Of a stretch of DNA of 28,227 nucleotides, positions 1,847 through 22,938 are shown one piece after another. The position numbers and the translations under genes are program-made. The notes under the pieces were generated by a model. The model did no database searches. It was not told the DNA's origin and saw only the letters and a list, made by a program, of their open reading frames with translations. Numbering within the stretch: position 1 is the stretch's first letter; the number at the start of each line of letters is the position of its first letter. The DNA is from a virus: the IMG/VR virus record IMGVR_UViG_3300030380_000547, positions 1 through 28,227 of that record; one strand, 5' to 3'.

Positions 1847-4369
1847 ATGGCTAAAAATAGTATAGAAAAAAGTTTGTATTCCGCACCAGAGGGTATGTCC
1901 ATGGAAGACGCTATGGAACCTGATGTGCAAATACAAATAGAAGACCCAGAGCAGGTAACACTAACCACAGATGATATGCAGATCATAATTGATCCTGATG
2001 CTGATGTAGGCACAGGTATAAAAGAATTTTCGGCAAACTTAGCTGAGTTCTTAGATGAAGAAGAATTAGTTGGGATATCTGAAGAATTATTAACTAATTT
2101 TGAAAGTGATAAAGGATCAAGAAAAGATTGGGAAAAGACTTATAGAGATGGTCTTAAATTACTCGGATTAAAAATTGAAGACAGGAGTGAACCTTGGACG
2201 GGAGCATGTGGTGTCTTTAACCCTATCTTATCAGAAGCAGTTGTCAGATTTCAAGCTGATGCAGTTATGGAGACTTTTCCTCCACAGGGACCAGTTAAAA
2301 CACAAATCATAGGGAAACTCACTAAAGATAAAGAAGAAGCTGCTAGGCGTGTCAAAGATGACATGAATTATCAACTTACTGTAAAGATGGCAGAGTATAG
2401 ACCTGAACACGAAAAGATGTTGTGGTCTTTAGCTTTAGCAGGAAGTGCATTTAAGAAAGTGTATTATGATCCTGCGTTAGAAAGACAAGTTTCTATATTT
2501 GTACCAGCAGAAGATTTTGTTATTTCATATGGTGCATCAGATTTAAAAACTTCTGAACGATATACACACATCATGCGTAAAAATGCAAATGATGTAAAAA
2601 AACTACAAGTGGCTGGTTTTTACAAAGACATAGAACTACCAGAACCAGAAGAAATAAGTTCAGATTATTCTGAAATACGTCCTGATATGGAAGAGGCTAG
2701 TGTTAATACAGATGATCGCTATATATTATTAGAAGCTCATGTTGATTTAATTATTGAAGGCGACCCATTAAAAAGTGAAGATGGTATAGCTGTTCCATAT
2801 GTAATAACTATTGAAAAATCTTCTGGAGAGATTTTATCTATTAGAAGAAACTGGGATTCCGAAGATAAAACGTATCAAAAACGTATGCACTTTGTTCATT
2901 ATATCTATATTCCCGGTTTTGGATTCTACGGATATGGGTTAATTCACTTAATTGGTGGCCATGCTAAGTCAGCAACCTCGCTTTTACGTCAATTAGTAGA
3001 TTCTGGTACGTTAAGTAACCTTCCGGGGGGCTTAAAAACAAGAGGTTTACGTATAAAAGGCGATGATACACCTATTTCTCCGGGAGAATTTAGAGATGTA
3101 GACGTACCGGGAGGTAAAATTAGTGAAAATATTACGTTTTTACCATATAAAGAGCCATCTCAAACGCTTTTAGCCCTTATGAATATGATTGTAGAGCAAG
3201 GAAGATCACTTGCAGCAGTCGCAGAGTTAAAAATATCTGATATTAATAAAGAAACTCCTGTTGGAACAACTTTAGCGTTGTTAGAACGTAGTTTAAAGGT
3301 TATGTCAGCGGTGCAAGCACGTATTCATGCGGCTATGAAGATAGAATTTCAGCTTTTAGCCTCAATAATTGGTGAATTTGCTCCAAAAAGCTATGAATAT
3401 ACGCCTAAATACAACGATTCTGAGGGCACATCTACTAGAGAAGATTACAAAATAGTAGAGGTTATACCCGTTTCTGACCCAAATGCGTCAACAATGTCGC
3501 AAAGAGTTGTGCAATATCAGGCAGTTTTACAGTTAGCTTCATCTGCTCCTCAGATGTATGACATGGCTCAACTACACAGACAAATGCTAGAAACTTTAGG
3601 TGTAAGGGCAGTAGAGAAGATACTTCCGTTGGATGATGACCAAAAACCGTTAAATCCAATAAGTGAAAATATGAACGCTATACAATTACGTCCTTTGAAA
3701 GCATTTATGTATCAAGACCACGAGGCACATATAAAAGTTCACATGAACGCTATGCAAGACCCTTTGATTCAACAAATGATAGGGCAAAATCCAAACGCAA
3801 AAGCAATAGCTTCTTCTTTACAGGCACATATTGCAGAACATTTAGCGTTTGCATATAGACAGAAGATAGAAGAGGCTATGGGTACTTCTTTACCACCTCC
3901 AGAAGAGGATTTACCAAAAGATATGGAAGTCGAATTATCTAAAGTTGCGGCAAAAGCTTCAGATATTGTGTTGGGTATGAGTAAACAACAAGTCGCAGCA
4001 CAACAAGCCCAACAAGCAAAACAAGATCCAATTGTACAAATGCAGCAAGCTGAACTTCAACTTAAACAAGCAGATGTTCAACTCAAACAAGAAGAACTCA
4101 AACGTAAGAAAAATAAAGATATTATGGATTCAGCAGCTAAAGCTGACCAGATTGAAGTTGAAAAACAGAGAATCGCTACTCAAGCTGAAACTGAAGGGGC
4201 AAGAATTGGTCTTGACGCAGCAAAAGCTAAAGATAAACAATCTGCCGATCAACAACTTGCAGGGTTAAAAATAGGTATGGATATAGCCAGAGATGCGGCA
4301 CAACGGCAAGCACAAGAATCTGTAGATAATACAAAACCAATCCCACCGGAAGGAACGCCAGATGCCTAG
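1847..4369 (+). CDS. Portal protein
   Basis: The portal forms the ring at one capsid vertex through which DNA enters and leaves and to which the neck binds. Evidence is the position immediately after terL, the large size (840 residues, close to P22-type portals) and an alpha/beta body including GACGVFNPILSEAVVRFQAD near residue 120. Roughly residues 710-830 are rich in Gln, Lys and Ala in a heptad-like pattern, predicted to form a long coiled coil resembling the C-terminal barrel of P22-type portals. The first 50 residues are acidic. An AGGA ribosome site precedes the ATG by six bases. The last bases overlap the next gene. The main uncertainty is the exact portal family. Confidence 0.88.
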   Translation: MAKNSIEKSLYSAPEGMSMEDAMEPDVQIQIEDPEQVTLTTDDMQIIIDPDADVGTGIKEFSANLAEFLDEEELVGISEELLTNFESDKGSRKDWEKTYRDGLKLLGLKIEDRSEPWTGACGVFNPILSEAVVRFQADAVMETFPPQGPVKTQIIGKLTKDKEEAARRVKDDMNYQLTVKMAEYRPEHEKMLWSLALAGSAFKKVYYDPALERQVSIFVPAEDFVISYGASDLKTSERYTHIMRKNANDVKKLQVAGFYKDIELPEPEEISSDYSEIRPDMEEASVNTDDRYILLEAHVDLIIEGDPLKSEDGIAVPYVITIEKSSGEILSIRRNWDSEDKTYQKRMHFVHYIYIPGFGFYGYGLIHLIGGHAKSATSLLRQLVDSGTLSNLPGGLKTRGLRIKGDDTPISPGEFRDVDVPGGKISENITFLPYKEPSQTLLALMNMIVEQGRSLAAVAELKISDINKETPVGTTLALLERSLKVMSAVQARIHAAMKIEFQLLASIIGEFAPKSYEYTPKYNDSEGTSTREDYKIVEVIPVSDPNASTMSQRVVQYQAVLQLASSAPQMYDMAQLHRQMLETLGVRAVEKILPLDDDQKPLNPISENMNAIQLRPLKAFMYQDHEAHIKVHMNAMQDPLIQQMIGQNPNAKAIASSLQAHIAEHLAFAYRQKIEEAMGTSLPPPEEDLPKDMEVELSKVAAKASDIVLGMSKQQVAAQQAQQAKQDPIVQMQQAELQLKQADVQLKQEELKRKKNKDIMDSAAKADQIEVEKQRIATQAETEGARIGLDAAKAKDKQSADQQLAGLKIGMDIARDAAQRQAQESVDNTKPIPPEGTPDA

Positions 4370-4562
4370 ATCGTTTGAAGAAATAATTATAGAAAAACTT
4401 AAAGAACATGTTAATAGTTATGCTGATGGATTAGCTTCCGGAGGTGCACAAAATTTCCCTGACTATCGGTTTCAGGTTGGGGTAATTCATGGATTGACTC
4501 TTGCTGAAAGAGACATTCTTGAAATAATTGAAACTGCGAAACAAACAGAGGATAGTACATGA
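4362..4562 (+). CDS. Small conserved phage protein of unknown function
   Basis: This 66-residue protein starts inside the end of the portal gene (8-base overlap) and ends in an ATGA overlap with the next gene, so it is embedded in the head operon. It has an amphipathic N-terminal helix (EEIIIEKLKEHVNSYADGL), a central Gly/Ala/Phe-containing turn, and a second helix ending LAERDILEIIETAKQ. There is no signal peptide, membrane segment or recognisable catalytic motif. I do not recognise a function. Position suggests a role in head assembly or portal function, but that is context only. Confidence 0.75.
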   Translation: MPRSFEEIIIEKLKEHVNSYADGLASGGAQNFPDYRFQVGVIHGLTLAERDILEIIETAKQTEDST

Positions 4563-4957
4563 ACACTAGAATAGGTGCGATAGATAAACAAAAAACGCAA
4601 AAACTAGCTGGAGAAATTGGAGAGTTAAAACTTCCACAACCGTCAGGATATAAGATTCTTATTACTTTACCAAAAATTGAAGATACTGTGGGAGATGCTG
4701 GAATTGTTTTAGCAGATTCTACAAAGAGAGCTGAAGAGATTGCTTCATGTTTAGGTTTTGTAGTAAAACTTGGTCCCCTTGCTTATAAAGATGAAGTTAA
4801 GTTTCCTGATGGACCTTGGTGTAAAGAAGGCGATTTTGTAATTATGAGAAATTACTCTGGTACTAGATTCAATATTCATAATGAAGAATTTAGATTAATA
4901 AACGATGACCAAATAGAAGCGGTCGTTGATGACCCTCGTGGATATACCCGTGCGTAA
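4559..4957 (+). CDS. GroES-like co-chaperonin (Cpn10 fold)
   Basis: This 132-residue protein aligns by eye to GroES over residues 30-125. GYKILITLP matches the first strand; a mobile-loop-like stretch follows with GIVL, where I49-V50-L51 equals the GroES tripeptide that binds GroEL; then GFVVKLGPLAYKD, EGDFVIM and a C-terminal strand pair ending NDDQIEAVVDD. An extra N-terminal tail of about 28 residues is absent from bacterial GroES. Phage co-chaperonins such as T4 gp31 replace host GroES to fold capsid protein, and placement among head genes fits that role. ATGA coupling joins it to the upstream gene. The fold call is fairly firm; partnership with host GroEL is inferred. No cpn60 gene is visible here. 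Confidence 0.85.
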   Translation: MNTRIGAIDKQKTQKLAGEIGELKLPQPSGYKILITLPKIEDTVGDAGIVLADSTKRAEEIASCLGFVVKLGPLAYKDEVKFPDGPWCKEGDFVIMRNYSGTRFNIHNEEFRLINDDQIEAVVDDPRGYTRA

Positions 4958-4967
4958 GGAGAATGAA

Positions 4968-5951
4968 ATGGAAAACCAAGAAGAAAAAGTTGAAGTAGAA
5001 GCAGTGGAACAGGAAGGGACTCCTGTAGAGACTGAACCAAAAAAAGAAGCTAAGAAGGAAGAATTAGAAATAGAAGTTGTAGATGATACTCCTGCAGAAG
5101 ATCGTGGGCGTAAGTCTATGAAAGTTCCTCCTAAAGAACCTTCTGAAGATGAAGTTAAAGAATATAACGCAAAAGTACAAAAACGAATAGATGAGATGAA
5201 ACGTGCTTGGCACGATGAACGCAGAGAAAAAGAAAAAGCATTTAGAGAACAACAAGAAGCTATTAACTACGCAAAACAAATTAAAGACGAAAATGAAAAA
5301 TTAAAACAAAAATTATCAGATGGTGAAAAAACCTTAATGGAGCAATCCAAACAAAAGGCAGAAACTTCTATTGCCATGGCTAAGAAAAATTTAGTTGCTG
5401 CACAAGAGACAGGGGATGCTGAAAAAATAACTCAAGCAATGGCAGATCTAACTCAACAAAACATTGAATTGGAAAATTGGAAGCGGTATGTACCTCAGTA
5501 CGATAAAACAGTTGAAAAAACTGCAGAAAAGACTTTACAAGAAGAAAAGAAAGAGTTACCGTTAAATCAACCTGTTCAAGAGCCAGCCCCACCAGATGAA
5601 AAAGCTATGGCTTGGTACAACAAAAACAAATGGTTTGGGGTTGATGATGAATTAACATCATTCGCTTATGGACTGCATACCAAACTGGTAAAGGACGGGA
5701 CTGATCCCCGTTCAGATGAATATTACGAGAGAATAGACTCTCGGCTGAGACAAGTATTTCCAGAGAAGTTCGATGAAGAACCTCAAAAGGAAACTACTAG
5801 CCAACAACAAAAAACGGTGGTAGCCCCGGCGACAAGAACGACTCCAAGTAAAAAGATTACTTTGACTAAAAGTCAGGTAGCTATTGCTAGGAAATTAGGC
5901 GTTCCCTTAGAAGTTTACGCTAAACAAGTTGCACTACAGGAGAAAAGATAA
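4968..5951 (+). CDS. Capsid scaffolding protein
   Basis: Scaffolding proteins guide coat assembly and leave before or during packaging. The 327-residue protein has a strongly acidic N-terminus (about residues 1-60), a charged, coiled-coil-like middle (about 75-190) rich in Glu, Lys and Gln, a more globular part near 215-275 (WYNKNKWFGVDDELTSFAYG), and a basic C-terminal helical segment with KSQVAIARKLGVPLEVYAKQ. In P22 a basic C-terminal helix-turn-helix binds coat, so a similar role is plausible. The start at 4968 is chosen because AAGGAG lies six bases upstream; an in-frame ATG 42 bases earlier lies inside the preceding gene. The position between portal and capsid supports the call; sequence identity to a named scaffold was not tested. 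Confidence 0.8.
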   Translation: MENQEEKVEVEAVEQEGTPVETEPKKEAKKEELEIEVVDDTPAEDRGRKSMKVPPKEPSEDEVKEYNAKVQKRIDEMKRAWHDERREKEKAFREQQEAINYAKQIKDENEKLKQKLSDGEKTLMEQSKQKAETSIAMAKKNLVAAQETGDAEKITQAMADLTQQNIELENWKRYVPQYDKTVEKTAEKTLQEEKKELPLNQPVQEPAPPDEKAMAWYNKNKWFGVDDELTSFAYGLHTKLVKDGTDPRSDEYYERIDSRLRQVFPEKFDEEPQKETTSQQQKTVVAPATRTTPSKKITLTKSQVAIARKLGVPLEVYAKQVALQEKR

Positions 5952-5952
5952 A

Positions 5953-6399
5953 ATGGGTAATCGTGTTGATCGAGAACTTCAAACGAGAGAAAAAGAATCT
6001 CGTGCTACGAGTTATACACCTCCACAACAACTACCTGACCCGAATCCTATGGACGGTTATAAATTCCGTTGGGTTAGAACAGCAATAAATGGACAGTCTG
6101 ATGTCCGTAATGTTTCTGTTCGCCGTAGGGAAGGTTGGGAACCTTGTAGAGCGGAGGATCATCCGGAGTTGGCTCTGTCTTTAGATGATTCATCTAAGCA
6201 GTCCGGTAACGTAGAGATAGGTGGTTTGATGTTATGTAAAGCACCTATTGAGATGACAGATAGTCGTCAAAAGTATTACGAGGATAAAGCCAATCAACAG
6301 CTTACTGCTGTTGAAAATAATTTTATGCGAGAGAATGATCCAAGGATGCCTTTATATGCAGATAAAAAGACAACTACGACATTCGGTAAAAGTAACTAA
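5953..6399 (+). CDS. Conserved hypothetical head-region protein
   Basis: The 148-residue protein starts at 5953, with AGGAG ten bases before the ATG inside the end of the scaffold gene; an in-frame ATG at 5929 would add eight residues inside that gene and lacks a good ribosome site. The N-terminus is charged and probably disordered (RELQTREKESRATSYTPPQQ), followed by a conserved-looking core DGYKFRWVRTAINGQSDVRN and RRREGWEPCRAEDHPE, and a helical C-terminus. I recall similar proteins beside capsid genes in marine phages, but no function. It could be a minor head component or assembly factor. Confidence 0.75.
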   Translation: MGNRVDRELQTREKESRATSYTPPQQLPDPNPMDGYKFRWVRTAINGQSDVRNVSVRRREGWEPCRAEDHPELALSLDDSSKQSGNVEIGGLMLCKAPIEMTDSRQKYYEDKANQQLTAVENNFMRENDPRMPLYADKKTTTTFGKSN

Positions 6400-6414: not shown

Positions 6415-7077
6415 ATGGCAGCTACTGCTTCCCCTTTTGGGTTAAAACCTACCAATATGATTGGTGGTGCACCCTACAATGGCGGTGCTATTAGACACTA
6501 TCATGTGAAAGCTAATAACTCTGCCGCTATTTTTAATGGCGACTTAGTTGTATTAAGTTCTGCTGGTTTACCAGCCGCCGTGTCCTCAACTCCCTCTGCT
6601 ATCAAAGATGCTCACGAAGGAGCTGCTGGTACCCCGGGAATTGTAGGAGTAATGGTTGGTGCTAGGTATATTGATAACAACGGAATTTTACAGTTCGATC
6701 AATTTTTACCAGCTAATGCTACAACTTCAGGATTTACAGAAATCAAAATAATGGTTAATGATGATCCAAGACAGTTGTATAAGATTCAAGGTAACGCAGC
6801 GTTGGGAACATTCAACAGCGGTACAGATGGATCTGGTTTTGCTGGTGCAGTTGGTAAAAACTGTTCTTTAGATTTCAGCACATCAGGTAGCACAAGCACG
6901 GGTAATTCAGGTGTATCACTTAAAATTGATACTAACGGTGGTACTTTAGCAGCAACTGCAACTCTCGGTATGAGAGTAATTGATGTTGTCGAAGGTACTG
7001 AAACCGATAACTTCCCTGAGTTTATTGTTAAATTTAATGTTGGCGTACATGCGTATGACAACTCATTAGGCGTATAA
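6415..7077 (+). CDS. Probable virion protein preceding the capsid gene
   Basis: The gene has a strong AGGAG site seven bases before its ATG and lies directly before the major capsid gene. The 220-residue product is rich in Gly, Ala, Ser and Thr with alternating hydrophobic residues typical of beta-structured virion proteins. It opens with ATASPFGLKPTNMIGGAPYN, has a probable beta-barrel body (GDLVVLSSAGLP, GIVGVMVGARYID), and ends with FIVKFNVGVHAYD. A decoration or head-stabilising protein is plausible from the good ribosome site and the neighbour, but I see no diagnostic motif. An alternative is a minor structural protein of the neck. Confidence 0.72.
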   Translation: MAATASPFGLKPTNMIGGAPYNGGAIRHYHVKANNSAAIFNGDLVVLSSAGLPAAVSSTPSAIKDAHEGAAGTPGIVGVMVGARYIDNNGILQFDQFLPANATTSGFTEIKIMVNDDPRQLYKIQGNAALGTFNSGTDGSGFAGAVGKNCSLDFSTSGSTSTGNSGVSLKIDTNGGTLAATATLGMRVIDVVEGTETDNFPEFIVKFNVGVHAYDNSLGV

Positions 7078-7089
7078 GGAGATTTTTAA

Positions 7090-8001
7090 ATGGCTATTTC
7101 AAGAGCACAACTACTAAAAGAACTCCTTCCCGGCTTAAATGCTTTATTTGGTTTAGAGTATGCCAAGTACGGTGAAGAGCATAAGGAGATCTACGAGCAG
7201 GAAAATTCTGAGCGTTCATTTGAAGAGGAAACAAAGCTATCTGGCTTTGGTGCGGCTCCAGTTAAAACTGAAGGTGCTTCTGTAGAATTTGATAATGCAC
7301 AAGAAGCGTTTACTGCTAGATATTCACACGAAACCATAGCTATGGGTTTTGCAGTAACTGAAGAAGCAATGGAAGATAATCTTTACGATAGTCTTTCTTC
7401 TCGTTACACAAAGGCTTTAGCAAGAGCGATGGCTTATACAAAACAAGTAAAAGCTGCAGCTACTTTAAATAATGGTTTTAATTCTAACTTTAAGGGTGGT
7501 GATGGTGTTTCGTTATTTAGCACAGCACACCCGTTAGTAAGTGGTGGTACAAACAGTAACCGTCCATCTACAGGGGCAGACTTGAATGAAACATCTTTAG
7601 AAGATGCAGTAATTCAAATTGCAGCTTGGGTAGATGAACGTGGTTTATTAATTGCATCACAACCAAGAAAGTTAATCATTCCTCCAGCACTACAATTCGT
7701 GGCAACACGTTTGTTAGAAACTCAAGGGCGAGTTGGCACTGCTGATAATGATCTTAATGCATTGGCTAATAATGGTTCTATACCTGAAGGTTATTCAATA
7801 AACCACTATTTAACTGATACAAACGCTTGGTTCTTAACAACAGATATACCTAACGGTCTTAAGCACTTTGTTCGTGCACCTATGGCTACATCTATGGATG
7901 GAGACTTCGATACAGGTAACGTACGATACAAAGCTCGTGAGAGATATTCCTTTGGATTTTCTGATCCATTGGGAATGTTTGGATCGCCCGGTTCATCTTA
8001 A
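7090..8001 (+). CDS. Major capsid protein (HK97 fold, Mu gpT-like)
   Basis: This 303-residue protein is the best candidate for the shell-forming subunit. It has a helical, charged N-terminal arm (residues 1-50, EEHKEIYEQENSERSFEEE), then ARYSHETIAMGFAVTEEAMEDN (77-97), a central ALARAMAYTKQVKAAATLNNGF region, the turn LFSTAHPLVSGG (142-153), a helix DLNETSLEDAVIQIAAWVDERG, and RKLIIPPALQFVATRLL (193-209). This pattern resembles Mu major head subunit/HK97-type capsids. AAGGAG precedes the ATG by eight bases, one of the strongest ribosome sites here, consistent with high expression. A strong terminator follows the stop codon. No capsid maturation protease gene is visible in the window. Confidence 0.9.
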   Translation: MAISRAQLLKELLPGLNALFGLEYAKYGEEHKEIYEQENSERSFEEETKLSGFGAAPVKTEGASVEFDNAQEAFTARYSHETIAMGFAVTEEAMEDNLYDSLSSRYTKALARAMAYTKQVKAAATLNNGFNSNFKGGDGVSLFSTAHPLVSGGTNSNRPSTGADLNETSLEDAVIQIAAWVDERGLLIASQPRKLIIPPALQFVATRLLETQGRVGTADNDLNALANNGSIPEGYSINHYLTDTNAWFLTTDIPNGLKHFVRAPMATSMDGDFDTGNVRYKARERYSFGFSDPLGMFGSPGSS

Positions 8002-10295: not shown

Positions 10296-11001
10296 CATAC
10301 CATATACGAAAGTTTGGATTAGAAAAGAATTTACACATGGACATCAAAAATATCACGGGGAGTTTATACATGGATTGGCAATCGCAGTCACAACAATGCC
10401 GGACCGATGTCTCAGTTTCCAAATCATATTTACAGGATGTGAAGAGGAAGAGGGCGAGAGTAATCCGCACGGAGGTGCCATGTGGGCAAGGATGCCTATC
10501 ACAGCACTCTGTGGGGACATCCCAATGGATGAGTGGCCTGAAAGAATGGAAACACACCTCGCACAACCGTGGGACTGTCCATCACACCACCACTCAATTG
10601 TGTCCCTTAACAGGTGTAAGCCTAGCCCATGGTTATGTAAGATCGCCGGGGAGTTTCATACATCGAGATATCTCTTCACTGTGGACTTCACCGAAAGCGA
10701 AATCGCAGACTGTCCAGCCCAACACAAGCAGAGTCACGTTATGGTGCTGACAGATGGGCCTTGGAAGGGCAACATGGTAGCATTACCGAATAATAGAGTA
10801 AGAGTTACTAGTCCTGCTCTCTGGGTTACTGGTGAGGGTGCTCCTGATTTTAGACCAACACAATTTACACATTGTGCAGAGCAAGATGACTCGTATATGG
10901 ACCCAAATATAACATTCAACAATCTTTATAGAGGAGATGAAAATGTCGATATCGAGAAGTCAGATGTCAAAACAACTAAAAGGAAACAAAAAAGAAAATA
11001 A
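10276..11001 (+). CDS. Cys/His-rich conserved phage protein of unknown function
   Basis: The 241-residue protein starts with GTG 10276, eight bases after GGGAG (10263-10267). It opens MAYLISNIPYTKVWIRKEF, a start I recall in a conserved marine-phage family without assigned function. Eight cysteines (C45, C55, C79, C101, C114, C121, C146, C200) and many histidines, including a triple His at 104-106, suggest metal binding. It ends in a basic KTTKRKQKRK tail inside the next gene. Bases 10441-10740 contain 157 G or C in 300 (about 52%), far above neighbouring genes, which points to unusual selection or transfer. A second long frame lies over the same DNA. Not an enzyme I can recognise. Confidence 0.75.
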   Translation: MAYLISNIPYTKVWIRKEFTHGHQKYHGEFIHGLAIAVTTMPDRCLSFQIIFTGCEEEEGESNPHGGAMWARMPITALCGDIPMDEWPERMETHLAQPWDCPSHHHSIVSLNRCKPSPWLCKIAGEFHTSRYLFTVDFTESEIADCPAQHKQSHVMVLTDGPWKGNMVALPNNRVRVTSPALWVTGEGAPDFRPTQFTHCAEQDDSYMDPNITFNNLYRGDENVDIEKSDVKTTKRKQKRK

Positions 11002-11326
11002 AAAAAGTAACACTGCTACTGGTAATAGAAAAAAACTAGATGCTGATGGTGATGGTAAAATAACTGGAAAAGATTTCGCATTACTTAGACAACGGAAAGG
11101 AACTACGATGAGAAAAAAAATGGCTAAAGGTAACTCTGTAAAGATGTCCAAAGGTGGAGCAGTTAAGATGTCCAAAGGTGGAGCAGTTAAGATGTCCAAA
11201 GGTGGAGCAGTTAAAATGTCCAAGGGCGGAGCCGTTATGAAGAAAATGGCTAAAGGCGGTGCTGTTAAGATGTCCAAAGGCGGTGCTGTTATGAAGAAGA
11301 TGGCTAGAGGCGGAAGGGTTAGATAA
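10943..11326 (+). CDS. EF-hand/dockerin-like protein with tandem KMSKGGAV repeats
   Basis: Start ATG 10943 lies six bases after GAGGAG; the ATG at 10937 abuts that site. The 127-residue product has three parts. A basic N-terminus is followed by a calcium-loop-like sequence DADGDGKITGKD (residues 33-44), with acidic residues at loop positions 1, 3, 5 and 12, glycine at 6 and isoleucine at 8. Only one such loop is present, followed by FALLRQ, so it resembles half a dockerin or a lone EF-hand. The C-terminal half is a tandem array of KMSKGGAV units, with two longer MKKMAKGGAV-type units, ending GGRVR. The protein overlaps its upstream gene by 59 bases. Calcium binding is predicted, not shown. 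Confidence 0.75.
   Translation: MSISRSQMSKQLKGNKKENKKSNTATGNRKKLDADGDGKITGKDFALLRQRKGTTMRKKMAKGNSVKMSKGGAVKMSKGGAVKMSKGGAVKMSKGGAVMKKMAKGGAVKMSKGGAVMKKMARGGRVR
11141..11290 (+). repeat. 24-base tandem repeat within a coding region
   Basis: Three adjacent 24-base units (11141-11164, 11165-11188, 11189-11212) are identical; a fourth (11213-11236) differs mainly at silent third positions. After a 30-base insert-like unit (11237-11266), another related 24-base unit occupies 11267-11290. Each encodes KMSKGGAV. The array is in frame, so copy-number changes would lengthen or shorten the protein without breaking it. Confidence 0.92.
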
Positions 11327-14575: not shown

Positions 14576-15862
14576 ATGGCTTTAATACAAGCAGACAGAG
14601 TAAAAGAAAATTCTTCTACAACAGGCACAGGTAATTTTGCATTAGGAGGTGCAGCAACAGGTTTTAGAACTTTTGCAGATGGTGTAGGAGTTAGTAATAC
14701 TTGTTATTACGTGATTACAGACGATAGTAGTTACGAGGTAGGCTTAGGTACGTTAAACGCTTCTGCCACATTAGCTAGAACTACAGTTATAACTTCTTCT
14801 AACTCTAATAACGCTGTTGATTGGGCGGCAGGGTCAAAAAGTGTTTTTACTACATACCCCGGTCCTAAAGCAGTTATATTAGATGCTTCTAATAATTTAA
14901 ATGTTGCGGGAGGCGTTTCCGTAGGTGGTACGTTTCAAGTAACAGGTGAATTTAACTTAACAGATGTTTCAGCTAGTGGCACCTTAGATGTTGCAGGTAA
15001 TGGCTCTGTTGGTGGAACTCTTGCTGTAACTGGAGACACTGATGTTACAAACCTTTCAGCTAGTGGCACCTTAGATGTTGCGGGTAATGGTTCGGTTGGT
15101 GGCACATTTAATGTTGAAGGTGATCTTAAAAACACATCAGGTAATTTTACGGTAGCTCCAGCTACCCAGATATTTGAAATCAAAGGCTCTGGTTCTACTG
15201 AAGGACAAGTACAACTTAATTGTGCTGTTAATTCACACGGGCAAAAAATCACGGCAGCAGATCATTCTTTGGGAGCTACTAATACCTTAACGCTACCCGG
15301 AGGTAGCACTATAGGTAACTCAGATGCTACTTTAGTTTCTGACACAGGCACACAAACTTTAACTAATAAAACTTTTGATGATGTAACTTTAGGAACAGGC
15401 ACGGCGGATATATCAACAATGGTTAGTCAGGTTGCTTTTCAAAATAATTTAAGAGAACGAACCAGTATAAATACTTCAAGTGCTACTGGTACAATTAACT
15501 TTGATATACTGAGTCATAATGTTGAGCTTAGAACAAATGATGCAGCGGCTAATTTTGAGCTTAATTTTAGAGGAAATGCCAGCACCGCTTTTTCTGCAAC
15601 TGTAGCAGTGGGTCAAACAACTTCGTTTGCTTTTGAATCTAGTATGGGTAGCACGGCTTATTATTTAACAGCTATAAAAATAGATGGTGCTACAGCTTCA
15701 CCTGTTCATTGGCAAGGAGGAACCACCGCTCCATCAGAGGGTAATGCCGCTGGTATAGATAGTTATCTAGTTAATATAACTCGAGGAGCAGATGGAGGTA
15801 GTGGTTCGGCACAATATACATGTCTAGCCTCTCAAACTCAGTTTGGAAAGGTCACTTACTAA
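14576..15862 (+). CDS. Tail fibre-like protein with internal repeats
   Basis: The 428-residue product has a GGAGGA site five bases before its ATG. The N-terminus (ALIQADRVKENSSTTGTGNF through TTYPGPKAVILDASNNLNVA, to about residue 110) is probably a virion-attachment part. Residues 131-159 and 160-188 are tandem copies of a 29-residue unit (SASGTLDVAGNGSVGG core). Further beta repeats follow, including ATLVSDTGTQTLTNKTFDDV, a motif common in marine phage fibres. The end (SSMGSTAYYLTAIKIDGATA ... YTCLASQTQFGKVTY) is a beta domain. Overall this resembles a trimeric fibre shaft. The last base overlaps the following giant gene. Confidence 0.82.
   Translation: MALIQADRVKENSSTTGTGNFALGGAATGFRTFADGVGVSNTCYYVITDDSSYEVGLGTLNASATLARTTVITSSNSNNAVDWAAGSKSVFTTYPGPKAVILDASNNLNVAGGVSVGGTFQVTGEFNLTDVSASGTLDVAGNGSVGGTLAVTGDTDVTNLSASGTLDVAGNGSVGGTFNVEGDLKNTSGNFTVAPATQIFEIKGSGSTEGQVQLNCAVNSHGQKITAADHSLGATNTLTLPGGSTIGNSDATLVSDTGTQTLTNKTFDDVTLGTGTADISTMVSQVAFQNNLRERTSINTSSATGTINFDILSHNVELRTNDAAANFELNFRGNASTAFSATVAVGQTTSFAFESSMGSTAYYLTAIKIDGATASPVHWQGGTTAPSEGNAAGIDSYLVNITRGADGGSGSAQYTCLASQTQFGKVTY
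14967..15081 (+). repeat. Repeat copies in the fibre gene (87-base period)
   Basis: Bases 14967-14994 and 15054-15081 are identical over 28 bases, and similarity continues downstream with scattered differences. The 87-base spacing equals 29 codons, so the repeats are in frame and extend the fibre shaft. Divergence outside the identical core suggests an older duplication partly homogenised. Confidence 0.85.
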
Positions 15863-18800
15863 TGCCCATTAAAGGATTAAAAGGGGGCATAGGCACTAAA
15901 CCATTAGGTTATGGTCTTGGAGCTGCTGCAGAAGAATCAGAGCCTAATTTTAATCAAACTGTATTACTTCTTCATGGTGATGGTTCTGAAGGTGAGGGGA
16001 ATACTTCTGTATTAGGTAATCCAAACTACAAAGCATTTAAAGATAACTCTACATCAGCCCATGCTCTTGTTGTTAATGGTGATGCTTATGGTAATGACTT
16101 TAGCCCATATTATTATGCTAATGGGTATTGGTCTGAGTATTACAACCAACCTTCTGACTCAGGAGGTAATTGTAATCATAAAATATTACCTGCATCTTTT
16201 CTTAATGATTTAACTATTGCAAATAAATCAACATCTACTAAAACAGTTGAAGCATGGGTATATCCTACATCCATTAGAACAAGTTCAGTTCAATATTATG
16301 CAATGGGATGGTTTTGTAAAGGTAACATATATTGGGATTGTGCTCTTTGGTCTACTTCAAGCACCACTTCAGGAAAATTTACAGCATATCATTATGATGG
16401 AACACAAAGACCTTTAGAAAGTTCAAATTATTTTACAGTGGGTCAATGGTATCATGTTGCTTTAGTTATTGCTTCAGGAACTATAAAGTTATATGTTAAC
16501 GGAGCATTAGAAGGAAGTCGCACTTGGCATGGACTTGGGAGTACTGGGATTGGAGAAGTTAGTGTTATTGGTGGGACAGCTAGTAACAATGATTGGAATG
16601 GGTATATATCAAATCTAAGAGTGTCTTCTACAGCTAGGTACCCTTCTGCCTTTACGCCTAGCACTTCACCATTTACAAGTGATAGTGATACTTTATTACT
16701 TACAAACCAATCAAATAGATTTGTTGATAACTCTAGTTCAGCAAATACATTTACATTTCAAAATAACCCAAAAATAACTACCAACACACCATTTACACAA
16801 AGTAAAACTGCAAATGTAGGTTCTGGATATTTTGATGGTACTGGGGATAATTTAGAACTTGCTACTTCTGCCGATTGGGCATTTGGAACAGGTGATTTTA
16901 CTATTGAGATGTGGGTATATGCAGTTAAAACAACTGAACAATCTTTGTATGATGGTAGAAGTGCAAATGGTGCATATCCATTTTTGCTGATTCAAAATAG
17001 CTCAAATAAATTTATGTATTATGTAAATACAGCAGTTAAAATTACTGCTAATGATACTGTTCCTTTAAATCAATGGGTACATTTAGCCTTGGTTCGTTAT
17101 AGTAGTACAACAAAAATGTATGTAAATGGTGTAGCACAAACAGAGACTTTTTCAGATAGTACTAATTATTTACAAGCACCACTTCACATAGGGCAAAATC
17201 AACCTGCTGGTTCAGGAGATAACTTTGAAGGTTATTTAGCAGATTACAATGTTATTAAAGGAACAGCGAAACACACATCAAATTTTACACCTTCAACATC
17301 TACAATATCTGCTGATTCAAATACTAAACTTCTTACAATGCAATACTCAGGAGCAGTTCGTAACGTAGGGTTTGTAGATGACTCTAAATATAATCATCAG
17401 ATTACTCGTAATGGTGATGTAAGCATAGGTACATTTAGCCCATTTAGTTTAGAAGATGGGTATTGGAGTAATCTTATTAAATCAGGTGACGATTTAGAGT
17501 GTGGATCTTTTAACAAAACTTTATCAAATCAATGGTCTTTTGAGTTTTGGTACTTTAAATTAGATGATAGTATAGACGTTGTTATATCTACAGATTCAGG
17601 AGATCAATTTCAATGTGCTATCCTAGCATCAACAGTTTCTTTTTATTATGGTGGTGGTAGTAATATTGATGTTACAAGTAACTATACGGAAAACAATTGG
17701 GTACACTTTCTAGTAACAAAGGATAGTAGCAATAGAACAAGATTATTTTTAAACGGTGTGTTAAAAGGAACAAATGCAAGTAGTACAGCTACACCAACTC
17801 TTCAACATTTTAGAATTGGAGATCAAAGAAATACTGGTTCTCATCCTAGTTTTGGTTATATTAGTAATGTGCGATTTGTAATTGGTTCTATACCAACAAG
17901 TTATCAAACTTCTGAAACGTCTGTTGGAACATCTGTATTTACTTCCCCTTCTTCATTTTTAACAACAACATCTCAAGGAGCTACGTCTGGCGATGTAGAA
18001 TTGTTGACTTGTCAATCAAATCGATTTAAAGATAACAGTAGTAATAATTTTGCAATTACTGCTGCAAGTAATACACCAGAAGTACAACCATTCTCACCCT
18101 TTGTACCAACTCGGTCATATAGTAAAGATGCAGTAGGGGGTAGTTCATATTTTGAAGCTGCTGGTGATTATTTAAGTATTGAACAAAAATCTGGATATGA
18201 GTTTGATCTAGATGGCGATACAGATTGGTGTGTAGAATTTTGGTTGTATATGATAAACCCTTCTGCAAATTATGCTAGAGTCATGCAGTTAGATGCCAAT
18301 AGTTGGGCAATTCGTTTTGAGGCTACTACAAGCAAAATTGGAATGGGTACGTCTGATGCAGGGTCGATAGAAGATATTGAAGACCCAACAGCATTACCAG
18401 CGAATCAATGGACACATTTTGCGTTCACACATAAAAATTCAGATAGCACATTAAGACTATTTAGAAATGGAGCGTTAGTAGCAAGTACAACGTCATGGAG
18501 TCCATCATGGGGTCATAGCACAAATCCTTTGTTAATTTCAAGATATAAAAGCGGTAGTGCTAATTTTTTTGGAAATTTATACTTAGGTTCATTTAGGATA
18601 GTTAAAACCGACTATATTTATGATAGTGCATTTACACCTCCCACTGCTCCTTTCACTGCAAATGCAAACACAGTGTTACTTATGAATTCTACTAACGCAG
18701 GTATCATTGACCATACAATGAAAAACAACCTTGAGTCAGAAGGTAATACAAGAGTTTCAGGACAACAAATAAAGTTTGGCACTGGCAGTATTTATTTTGA

Positions 18801-19278
18801 TGGTACTGGTGATAAATTAGTAATTCCTCATCAGGAATATCATCAATTAGGGACGGGTGAATTCACAGTAGAATTATTTGTATATTTTACTTCGACTGAC
18901 GCCAGACAAGGATTTTTTGGGAATGATGGGGGTTGGTATTTTCAAATTTATGACGGTGAATTAGAATTTGCTCTAAGTACTAGTGCAGTTATCGAAAGAT
19001 CATTTTCACACAGTATTAATCAGTGGTATCACTTAGCTGCTACTAGGGATTCGTCAAATGATATTCGTTTGTTTATTGATGGTACACAACAAGGAGCAGT
19101 TGTAAATAGTACTGCTGACTTACGTCATGCTTCTAATGATTTTCATATTGGAAATATCGGACCAGCTACTAGTAGACTTTTTAAAGGGGGATATATGGAC
19201 GAAATTAGAATAACTAAAGGAGTTGCCAGATATACTTCAAACTTTACAGTCCCAACAAAAGCATTTGCAAATAGATAG
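15862..19278 (+). CDS. Giant LamG-like multidomain fibre/adhesin
   Basis: With start ATG 15862 (overlapping the previous stop) the product is 1138 residues, the largest in the window. It contains five modules of about 220 residues. Each opens with an LLL/KLL strand and a linker like RFVDNSS or FKDNST (near residues 59, 287, 504, 722, and a degenerate IIDHTMKN near 948), followed by a jelly-roll core with EAWVYP-, FTIEMWVY-, SFEFWYF-, CVEFWLY- and FTVELFVY-type strands (near 127, 345, 559, 789, 1000), WYHVALV/WVHLALV-type strands, LYVNG/MYVNG/LFLNG/LFRNG/LFIDG turns, and a NLRVS- or EIRITKG-like end. This is the laminin-G/concanavalin-like fold, which often binds carbohydrate. It is probably a receptor-binding or adhesion protein. 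An assembly chaperone follows it. Confidence 0.88.
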   Translation: MPIKGLKGGIGTKPLGYGLGAAAEESEPNFNQTVLLLHGDGSEGEGNTSVLGNPNYKAFKDNSTSAHALVVNGDAYGNDFSPYYYANGYWSEYYNQPSDSGGNCNHKILPASFLNDLTIANKSTSTKTVEAWVYPTSIRTSSVQYYAMGWFCKGNIYWDCALWSTSSTTSGKFTAYHYDGTQRPLESSNYFTVGQWYHVALVIASGTIKLYVNGALEGSRTWHGLGSTGIGEVSVIGGTASNNDWNGYISNLRVSSTARYPSAFTPSTSPFTSDSDTLLLTNQSNRFVDNSSSANTFTFQNNPKITTNTPFTQSKTANVGSGYFDGTGDNLELATSADWAFGTGDFTIEMWVYAVKTTEQSLYDGRSANGAYPFLLIQNSSNKFMYYVNTAVKITANDTVPLNQWVHLALVRYSSTTKMYVNGVAQTETFSDSTNYLQAPLHIGQNQPAGSGDNFEGYLADYNVIKGTAKHTSNFTPSTSTISADSNTKLLTMQYSGAVRNVGFVDDSKYNHQITRNGDVSIGTFSPFSLEDGYWSNLIKSGDDLECGSFNKTLSNQWSFEFWYFKLDDSIDVVISTDSGDQFQCAILASTVSFYYGGGSNIDVTSNYTENNWVHFLVTKDSSNRTRLFLNGVLKGTNASSTATPTLQHFRIGDQRNTGSHPSFGYISNVRFVIGSIPTSYQTSETSVGTSVFTSPSSFLTTTSQGATSGDVELLTCQSNRFKDNSSNNFAITAASNTPEVQPFSPFVPTRSYSKDAVGGSSYFEAAGDYLSIEQKSGYEFDLDGDTDWCVEFWLYMINPSANYARVMQLDANSWAIRFEATTSKIGMGTSDAGSIEDIEDPTALPANQWTHFAFTHKNSDSTLRLFRNGALVASTTSWSPSWGHSTNPLLISRYKSGSANFFGNLYLGSFRIVKTDYIYDSAFTPPTAPFTANANTVLLMNSTNAGIIDHTMKNNLESEGNTRVSGQQIKFGTGSIYFDGTGDKLVIPHQEYHQLGTGEFTVELFVYFTSTDARQGFFGNDGGWYFQIYDGELEFALSTSAVIERSFSHSINQWYHLAATRDSSNDIRLFIDGTQQGAVVNSTADLRHASNDFHIGNIGPATSRLFKGGYMDEIRITKGVARYTSNFTVPTKAFANR

Positions 19279-21522: not shown

Positions 21523-22938
21523 ATGAGTCAAACATTCCCAAACGATTTTAAGATAAGTAATATTGACACCGGAACCGAATCAGGCACATGGGGCACTATT
21601 ACAAATTCTAACTTTAATAATTTAGTCGCTACTGTAGGTGGTTTTAAACAGATAAGTATATCTAGTACAAACAGCCATACATTAACAGCACCTGCTGATA
21701 ACACGTCTACACAAGATTTTAGAAACCATTTTTTAGAATTAACAGGGACATCTACTGGTACTGCTGCTGCTACATTTACACTAACTTTACCTGCTTCTTT
21801 AGATAAAGAATACATAATAAAAAATTCATTACAGCATACTGTTAATGTTAAAACATCAACTCAAGTTACGCCTTTAGAAATACCAATAGGCAAAACAAAT
21901 GCTGTTTATCTAAATGGAGCAACTGCTTTACCAACAATAAACACACTAGATTCTTTAACATTAAGCACAGCGTTACCTGTATCTTCTGGAGGTACAGGGT
22001 TAGTATCTGCTGAAGCTGGGGGATTGATGGTTATGAACTCAGCAGCTACATCTTTTACTATAGTTTCTGCTGGGCCAACTGGTAATGTATTAACAAGTGA
22101 TGGTGATAAGTTTATTAGTGCGTCTTTTCAGTCTGCTGCTTTATCTAATGTTATTAGAACGAATGTTGGTGGGTATGCTGCTGCAGGTAGCACTCAACCC
22201 ACCGTGGCAAACGGAGGTATGCAAGCAGTACAAAGTTATCTTTTATCAAAAGACACTACTTATACAGGGTTTGATGCAGTGGGAGCGTTCAATGCAGCTA
22301 GAGAAGAAACAGGAATTACTGCTACAAGAAACGATTCTGCTGGTGTAAATCAATGTAATTTACACGTATTTAAATCTGGAGAACCTAATAACGCAATAAC
22401 ACCTTTAGCTGTGCGAAATAATGGAGGGAACGCTGATGTCTTAATTACAACTAATGTTGTTCCTTTTGTGGATAATACAAATGATTTAGGCTCTAGCTCT
22501 AAAAGATTTAATGACGTGTTTGCAGCTAATGGTGTAACTACATCATCTGATAGAAGATTAAAAAACAATATTACAAATTCTGAATTAGGATTAGATTTTA
22601 TAAATCAATTACAACCTCGTAGATATAAAGTTAATCAGGGTGGTGGTTACATAACTGGAGTTGATGATACACCAAATTATATGCCTACATATGGAGTTAC
22701 TCCGGGCGTTAGATTTCACCATGGATTAATTGCTCAAGAAGTTGAACAAACTTTATATAACCAGAATATTGATAAGTCTACTTTTGCAGGATGGTGTTTA
22801 ACAGATCCCGGTGATTCAAATTCAACACAAATGTTAAGATATGAAGAGTTTATAGCACCGATGATGAAAGCAATACAAGAGTTATCTAATAAAGTAAATG
22901 CGTTAGAAACGAGAATACAACAACTAGAGTCTAACTAA
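21523..22938 (+). CDS. Tail fibre with C-terminal S74 autoprotease/chaperone domain
   Basis: The 471-residue product starts six bases after AAGGA. The N-terminal half is beta-rich fibre (SQTFPNDFKISNIDTGTESG onward, with a SSGGTGLVSAEAGGLMVMNS repeat-like stretch common in fibres). Residues 340-471 form an intramolecular chaperone: TSSDRRLKNN carries S342 and K347, five apart as in endosialidase-type S74 proteases; DLGSSSKRFNDVFA precedes it, and HHGLIAQEVEQTL and LRYEEFIAPMMKAIQELSNK follow. The chaperone trimerises the fibre, then cleaves itself off before S342. The released tail ends in a coiled coil. Key residues are intact, so self-processing is predicted. Confidence 0.92.
   Translation: MSQTFPNDFKISNIDTGTESGTWGTITNSNFNNLVATVGGFKQISISSTNSHTLTAPADNTSTQDFRNHFLELTGTSTGTAAATFTLTLPASLDKEYIIKNSLQHTVNVKTSTQVTPLEIPIGKTNAVYLNGATALPTINTLDSLTLSTALPVSSGGTGLVSAEAGGLMVMNSAATSFTIVSAGPTGNVLTSDGDKFISASFQSAALSNVIRTNVGGYAAAGSTQPTVANGGMQAVQSYLLSKDTTYTGFDAVGAFNAAREETGITATRNDSAGVNQCNLHVFKSGEPNNAITPLAVRNNGGNADVLITTNVVPFVDNTNDLGSSSKRFNDVFAANGVTTSSDRRLKNNITNSELGLDFINQLQPRRYKVNQGGGYITGVDDTPNYMPTYGVTPGVRFHHGLIAQEVEQTLYNQNIDKSTFAGWCLTDPGDSNSTQMLRYEEFIAPMMKAIQELSNKVNALETRIQQLESN

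Follow-up and report, generated by a model that had tools for sequence, protein, structure and literature searches.

The open reading frame (ORF) at positions 4559-4957 very probably encodes a GroES-like lid for the host GroEL, with a phage-specific roof and with the major capsid protein as its likeliest client. The gene lies on the plus strand of a 28,227-base IMG/VR record (hereafter the window), as do the head genes and protein segments described below; it starts at ATG and specifies a phage co-chaperonin of 132 amino acids (14.7 kDa). It is an ordinary and correctly recognised gene of a kind already known, and its link to one class of capsid protein is better than expected. Phage GroES genes are easily taken for accessory genes; here one is almost invariably tied to a single capsid module.

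The ORF scored 34.9 bits against PF00166 (Cpn10; cut-off 21.1), with residues 27/28-123 covering positions 4-93 of the 93-position profile, and matched phrog_3188 ("co-chaperonin GroES") at 1.9e-12, as did 37/37 aligned phage relatives. The Pfam and phrog_3188 matches indicate that the resemblance to GroES is not due to chance. A PDB sequence search returned GroES chains, including 8wuw, and many annotated viral GroES proteins in a viral library also matched. An AlphaFold2 model of the monomer, generated from an alignment of the 37 phage relatives, was of moderate confidence (pLDDT 73, pTM 0.68). Its leading PDB matches were Cpn10/GroES structures (TM normalised by target 0.5-0.76), and T4 gp31 (1g31) was recovered with an E value of 5e-4 at 13 percent identity. 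The structural comparison with GroES and gp31 that had been suggested alongside the original prediction upholds the claim of a GroES-like fold: the predicted model is a GroES beta-barrel, and each of its best PDB matches is a Cpn10/GroES or gp31. Most nucleotide differences between the ORF and its relatives fall at third codon positions. Scored against NCBIfam's equivalog models for bacterial GroES (NF001532 among them), the ORF remained below the curated cut-offs, with a best score of 34.2 bits versus approximately 96-147. By sequence and by predicted fold the protein is a genuine Cpn10/GroES homologue, and the profile scores place it in a divergent phage lineage outside the bacterial GroES equivalogs.

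Its location within a head operon was correctly anticipated, since the Cpn10 gene lies between the portal and capsid genes both in the window and in the loci retrieved with GroES queries. Upstream in the window are genes for the terminase large subunit (315-1838; phrog_38, 1.9e-107), a 93.6-kDa portal protein (1847-4369; phrog_1216, 1.6e-23) and a 66-residue protein (4362-4562; phrog_32603) that is a conserved companion immediately before Cpn10. Downstream follow a putative scaffolding protein of 37.9 kDa (4968-5951), the conserved head-module proteins g156 (5953-6399; phrog_36003, syntenic) and g220 (6415-7077, syntenic), and a 32.9-kDa Mu gpT-like major capsid protein (7090-8001; phrog_371, 4.3e-23; PF25209 and PF10124 over cut-off). 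The start of the scaffolding gene was taken as the ATG at 4968, which follows AAGGAG; the protein belongs to phrog_28737, a family of unknown function, and the proposed role is suggested by its place between the portal and capsid genes. In 80 loci found with GroES queries the order terminase, portal, small gene, GroES, scaffold-like gene, g156, g220, capsid held wherever sequence was available, with tblastn at this divergence missing some of the module members.

The 66-residue companion is predicted to fold into two helices (AlphaFold2 pLDDT 94) and carries the core motif Y-x4-G-x-I-x-G-L. Matches to an HMM of this family were detected in 195/270 candidate ORFs directly upstream of Cpn10, and a PDB structure search with the companion model gave no informative match. 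The stop of the companion gene overlaps the start of the Cpn10 gene in the sequence ATGA, suggesting that translation of companion and lid is coupled.

Linkage was examined in the reverse direction by anchoring on the capsid protein, counting loci with at least 3.5 kb of upstream sequence and requiring Cpn10 upstream on the same strand. Cpn10 was found in 191/193 such loci, comprising 56/56 IMG/VR loci near the window, 73/73 IMG/VR loci near Caulobacter phage RW, and 62/64 contigs from bacterial genomes. The two remaining contigs (L184 and L193) were rejected as counter-examples because the entire upstream portion of the module is missing, cut off where the contig passes into unrelated sequence or a run of N; they are MAG contigs labelled Rhodothermaceae and Dehalococcoidia in which this phage head module is joined to unrelated sequence, probably through assembly errors. 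Among phage records with this capsid protein, at least 20/22 carry Cpn10. In two distant branches of the capsid protein Cpn10 is not adjacent to the capsid gene; the three records longer than 40 kb that were searched and two complete genomes carry it elsewhere, and the several shorter records that show no Cpn10 are too short to judge. One distant capsid relative occurs in an archaeal virus (BK063670, Methanomicrobiales virus; L169), where Cpn10 is located before the terminase gene. An E. coli GroES query matched 117/50,697 phage records, which is a low estimate. In marine, freshwater and prophage lineages alike, Cpn10 is a nearly obligatory component of this one head module. Its presence in essentially every phage with this capsid type suggests that such a capsid cannot be folded without the Cpn10 lid, and the near-invariant linkage opens a direct test both of the capsid's need for its own lid and of client selection by the conserved roof.

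The capsid protein is the likeliest client because the lid gene travels with the capsid module almost without exception, and this linkage together with the T4 precedent would make it the best candidate. GroES distances track capsid distances across lineages (rho 0.89, partial 0.27). The capsid protein ranks first in only about half of the bootstraps. The co-variation of portal and of g156 with GroES is almost as strong as that of the capsid protein, and the whole head module is inherited together, two observations that would fit a lid for host GroEL serving a different head protein (portal, scaffold, g156 or g220) or a large number of phage proteins. Moreover, portal and capsid genes co-occur in isolates, so that linkage cannot name the client, and a case of Cpn10 with the portal minus the capsid protein is not separable. 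The 93.6-kDa portal, however, is larger than GroEL/GroES can accommodate, since even approximately 56 kDa slightly exceeds the limit (PMC6318259); for the neighbouring scaffold the partial correlation with GroES is close to nil (0.07); and the known essential client of T4 gp31 is the capsid protein (PMC6318259). We consider a client other than the capsid protein possible but doubtful, and the capsid protein is retained as the preferred client.

To act as a lid, the phage protein would require a GroEL partner. A phage-encoded partner was rejected, as searches of the window and of 14 related phage records turned up no GroEL. In six bacterial genomes with related prophages, Cpn10 genes were detected in 6/6 and GroEL scored over the cut-off in 5/6. 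Given the absence of phage GroEL from the records searched and the presence of host GroEL in five of these six genomes, action of the phage lid on host GroEL is, by homology, a sensible reading.

The putative GroEL contact is the tripeptide I49-V50-L51 (4703-4711) in the mobile loop. When the protein is aligned jointly with E. coli GroES and 36 bacterial GroES, the tripeptide occupies exactly the three columns of I25-V26-L27 in the E. coli protein, and a phmmer alignment matches it to the same loop of 8wuw; the tripeptide is therefore in exact register with the position originally assigned to it. Model confidence (pLDDT) in this loop is low, as expected of a mobile loop. The tripeptide had further been described as conserved, but IVL occurs in just 7/174 phage relatives. 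Position 49 is the only strict position of the three, being I, L or V in 172/173 non-redundant relatives, and position 51, the equivalent of GroES L27, is Lys or Arg in 69/174 (~40 percent). Among the chromosomal GroES compared, most of which come from one bacterial class, 34/36 have III. The Lys/Arg state has switched at least nine times on the capsid tree and at least seven times on a loop-free GroES tree.

GroES L27 is highly conserved, and an L27A variant has been reported unable to interact with GroEL (PMC3514286); relatives with Lys or Arg must therefore dock differently or not at all. Their frequency challenges the expectation that docking needs this leucine. If this variation at the putative GroEL contact of the phage family reflected a loss of GroEL action, the protein could have a structural or assembly role in the head while retaining the Cpn10 fold. 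We regard this as highly improbable, given that the window protein has Leu at the L27 site, that the mobile loop is kept, with the low confidence noted above, and that position 49 remains I, L or V in all but one relative. For the window protein, docking on GroEL through the loop remains the preferred reading.

The strongest signature of the phage family lies in the roof segment, G72-D92 (4772-4834), which follows the pattern G-x2-A-[YF]-x-D-x3-F-P-x-G-x-W-C-x2-G-D; the A-[YF]-x-D, F-P, G and W-C elements preceding G-D are conserved columns in both the 37 and the 173 relatives. These aromatic/Cys residues were not found in the 36 bacterial GroES of the joint alignment. Both this signature and the tight linkage to one capsid module would be unexpected if the gene were a generic supply gene, an ordinary GroES substitute without client specificity that frees the phage from limiting or degraded host GroES. 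The IVL loop of the window protein, identical to that of E. coli GroES, would suit such a role, and T4 gp31 is able to stand in for GroES with every cellular client (PMC6318259). On balance we judge simple lid supply to be unlikely, and a lid with a phage-specific roof is favoured.

It had also been proposed that a larger roof and loop and a 28-residue N-terminal extension could enlarge the folding chamber. The loop part of this description holds, as the mobile-loop segment comprises 30 residues versus 25 in bacterial GroES (phage median 29, or +4-5), but the roof, at 19 residues versus 18, is only one residue longer. The N-terminal extension is likewise present, at approximately 24 residues beyond E. 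coli GroES (P28 aligns with P5; residues 1-24, 4559-4630; predicted helix at 10-20), but relatives differ greatly in how long it is and in its sequence, and two of them nearly lack it. Compared with T4 gp31, whose type is marked by a lengthened mobile loop (22 versus 16 residues) and absent roof loops, the window protein shares the longer loop segment and differs in having a roof. The larger cage of gp31 has been invoked for T4 gp23, which is roughly 56 kDa (PMC6318259). With one extra roof residue, an unconserved extension and a capsid protein of 32.9 kDa, enlargement has little basis and was rejected; a capsid protein of this size needs no larger cage, so that a roof matched to the client, or lid supply, is the better reading.

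We propose that seven copies of the phage Cpn10 would form a ring, and that this ring would dock on an ATP-bound host GroEL ring through the mobile-loop residues I49-V50-L51. The docked lid would displace or supplement host GroES and close the folding cage, whose roof would then present the residues characteristic of this phage family. The enclosed client would most likely be the co-encoded Mu gpT-like major capsid protein. What the phage gains could be a cage roof adapted to its capsid protein, or a source of lids that does not depend on the host, rather than an enlarged cage. A bolder version, which we put forward only tentatively and hold to be rather less likely true than false, is that this Mu gpT-like capsid class folds only under a dedicated Cpn10 with an aromatic/Cys, client-facing roof, and that the GroEL contact has been remodelled at least seven to nine times (Lys/Arg at the L27 position), with docking through two hydrophobic residues in many relatives.

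Beyond the head module, the window encodes a 1152-residue protein (15820-19278) that contains five Laminin_G_3 (concanavalin A-like) domains and is probably a tail or fibre protein that binds the host. Several small Lys-rich ORFs lie between 9004 and 12089, one of which (10937-11326) encodes a basic protein with tandem KMSKGGAV-type repeats. The protein encoded at 21523-22938 has a C-terminal Peptidase_S74 (endosialidase chaperone) domain; such domains act as intramolecular chaperones for tail spikes or fibres.

Cpn10 genes of this kind are already annotated in isolated pelagiphages, roseophages, cyanophages and Caulobacter phages; annotated GroES relatives occur in pelagiphages HTVC023P and HTVC027P, in roseophages CRP-901 and CRP-902, and in Planktothrix, Synechococcus and Caulobacter phages. 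In HTVC023P-type pelagiphages, GroES counts among the 13 core genes (PMC9599517). HTVC023P gp36 and HTVC027P gp55 belong to the same family, are likewise encoded between the portal and capsid genes and share 39.8-40.2 percent identity with the window protein, whereas the loop tripeptide and the N-terminal extension differ and the insertions between portal and Cpn10 are larger in these phages. Planktothrix phage Pag-Yong1, roseophage CRP-902 and Caulobacter phage RW show the same module order with an annotated GroES at 29-49 percent identity, but have other hosts and other loop residues (IIR in Pag-Yong1). E. coli GroES resembles the window protein in fold, in strand order and in having IVL in register; at 28 percent identity it differs in that the window protein has five more residues in the mobile-loop segment, one more in a roof bearing the aromatic/Cys signature, and extensions at both the N- and C-termini. 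T4 gp31 is likewise a phage-encoded GroES analogue with a longer mobile loop and is used for capsid folding. It is, however, a weaker structural match to the window model (1g31) than Cpn10/GroES, and whereas gp31 is without roof loops (PMC6318259), the window protein keeps its roof.
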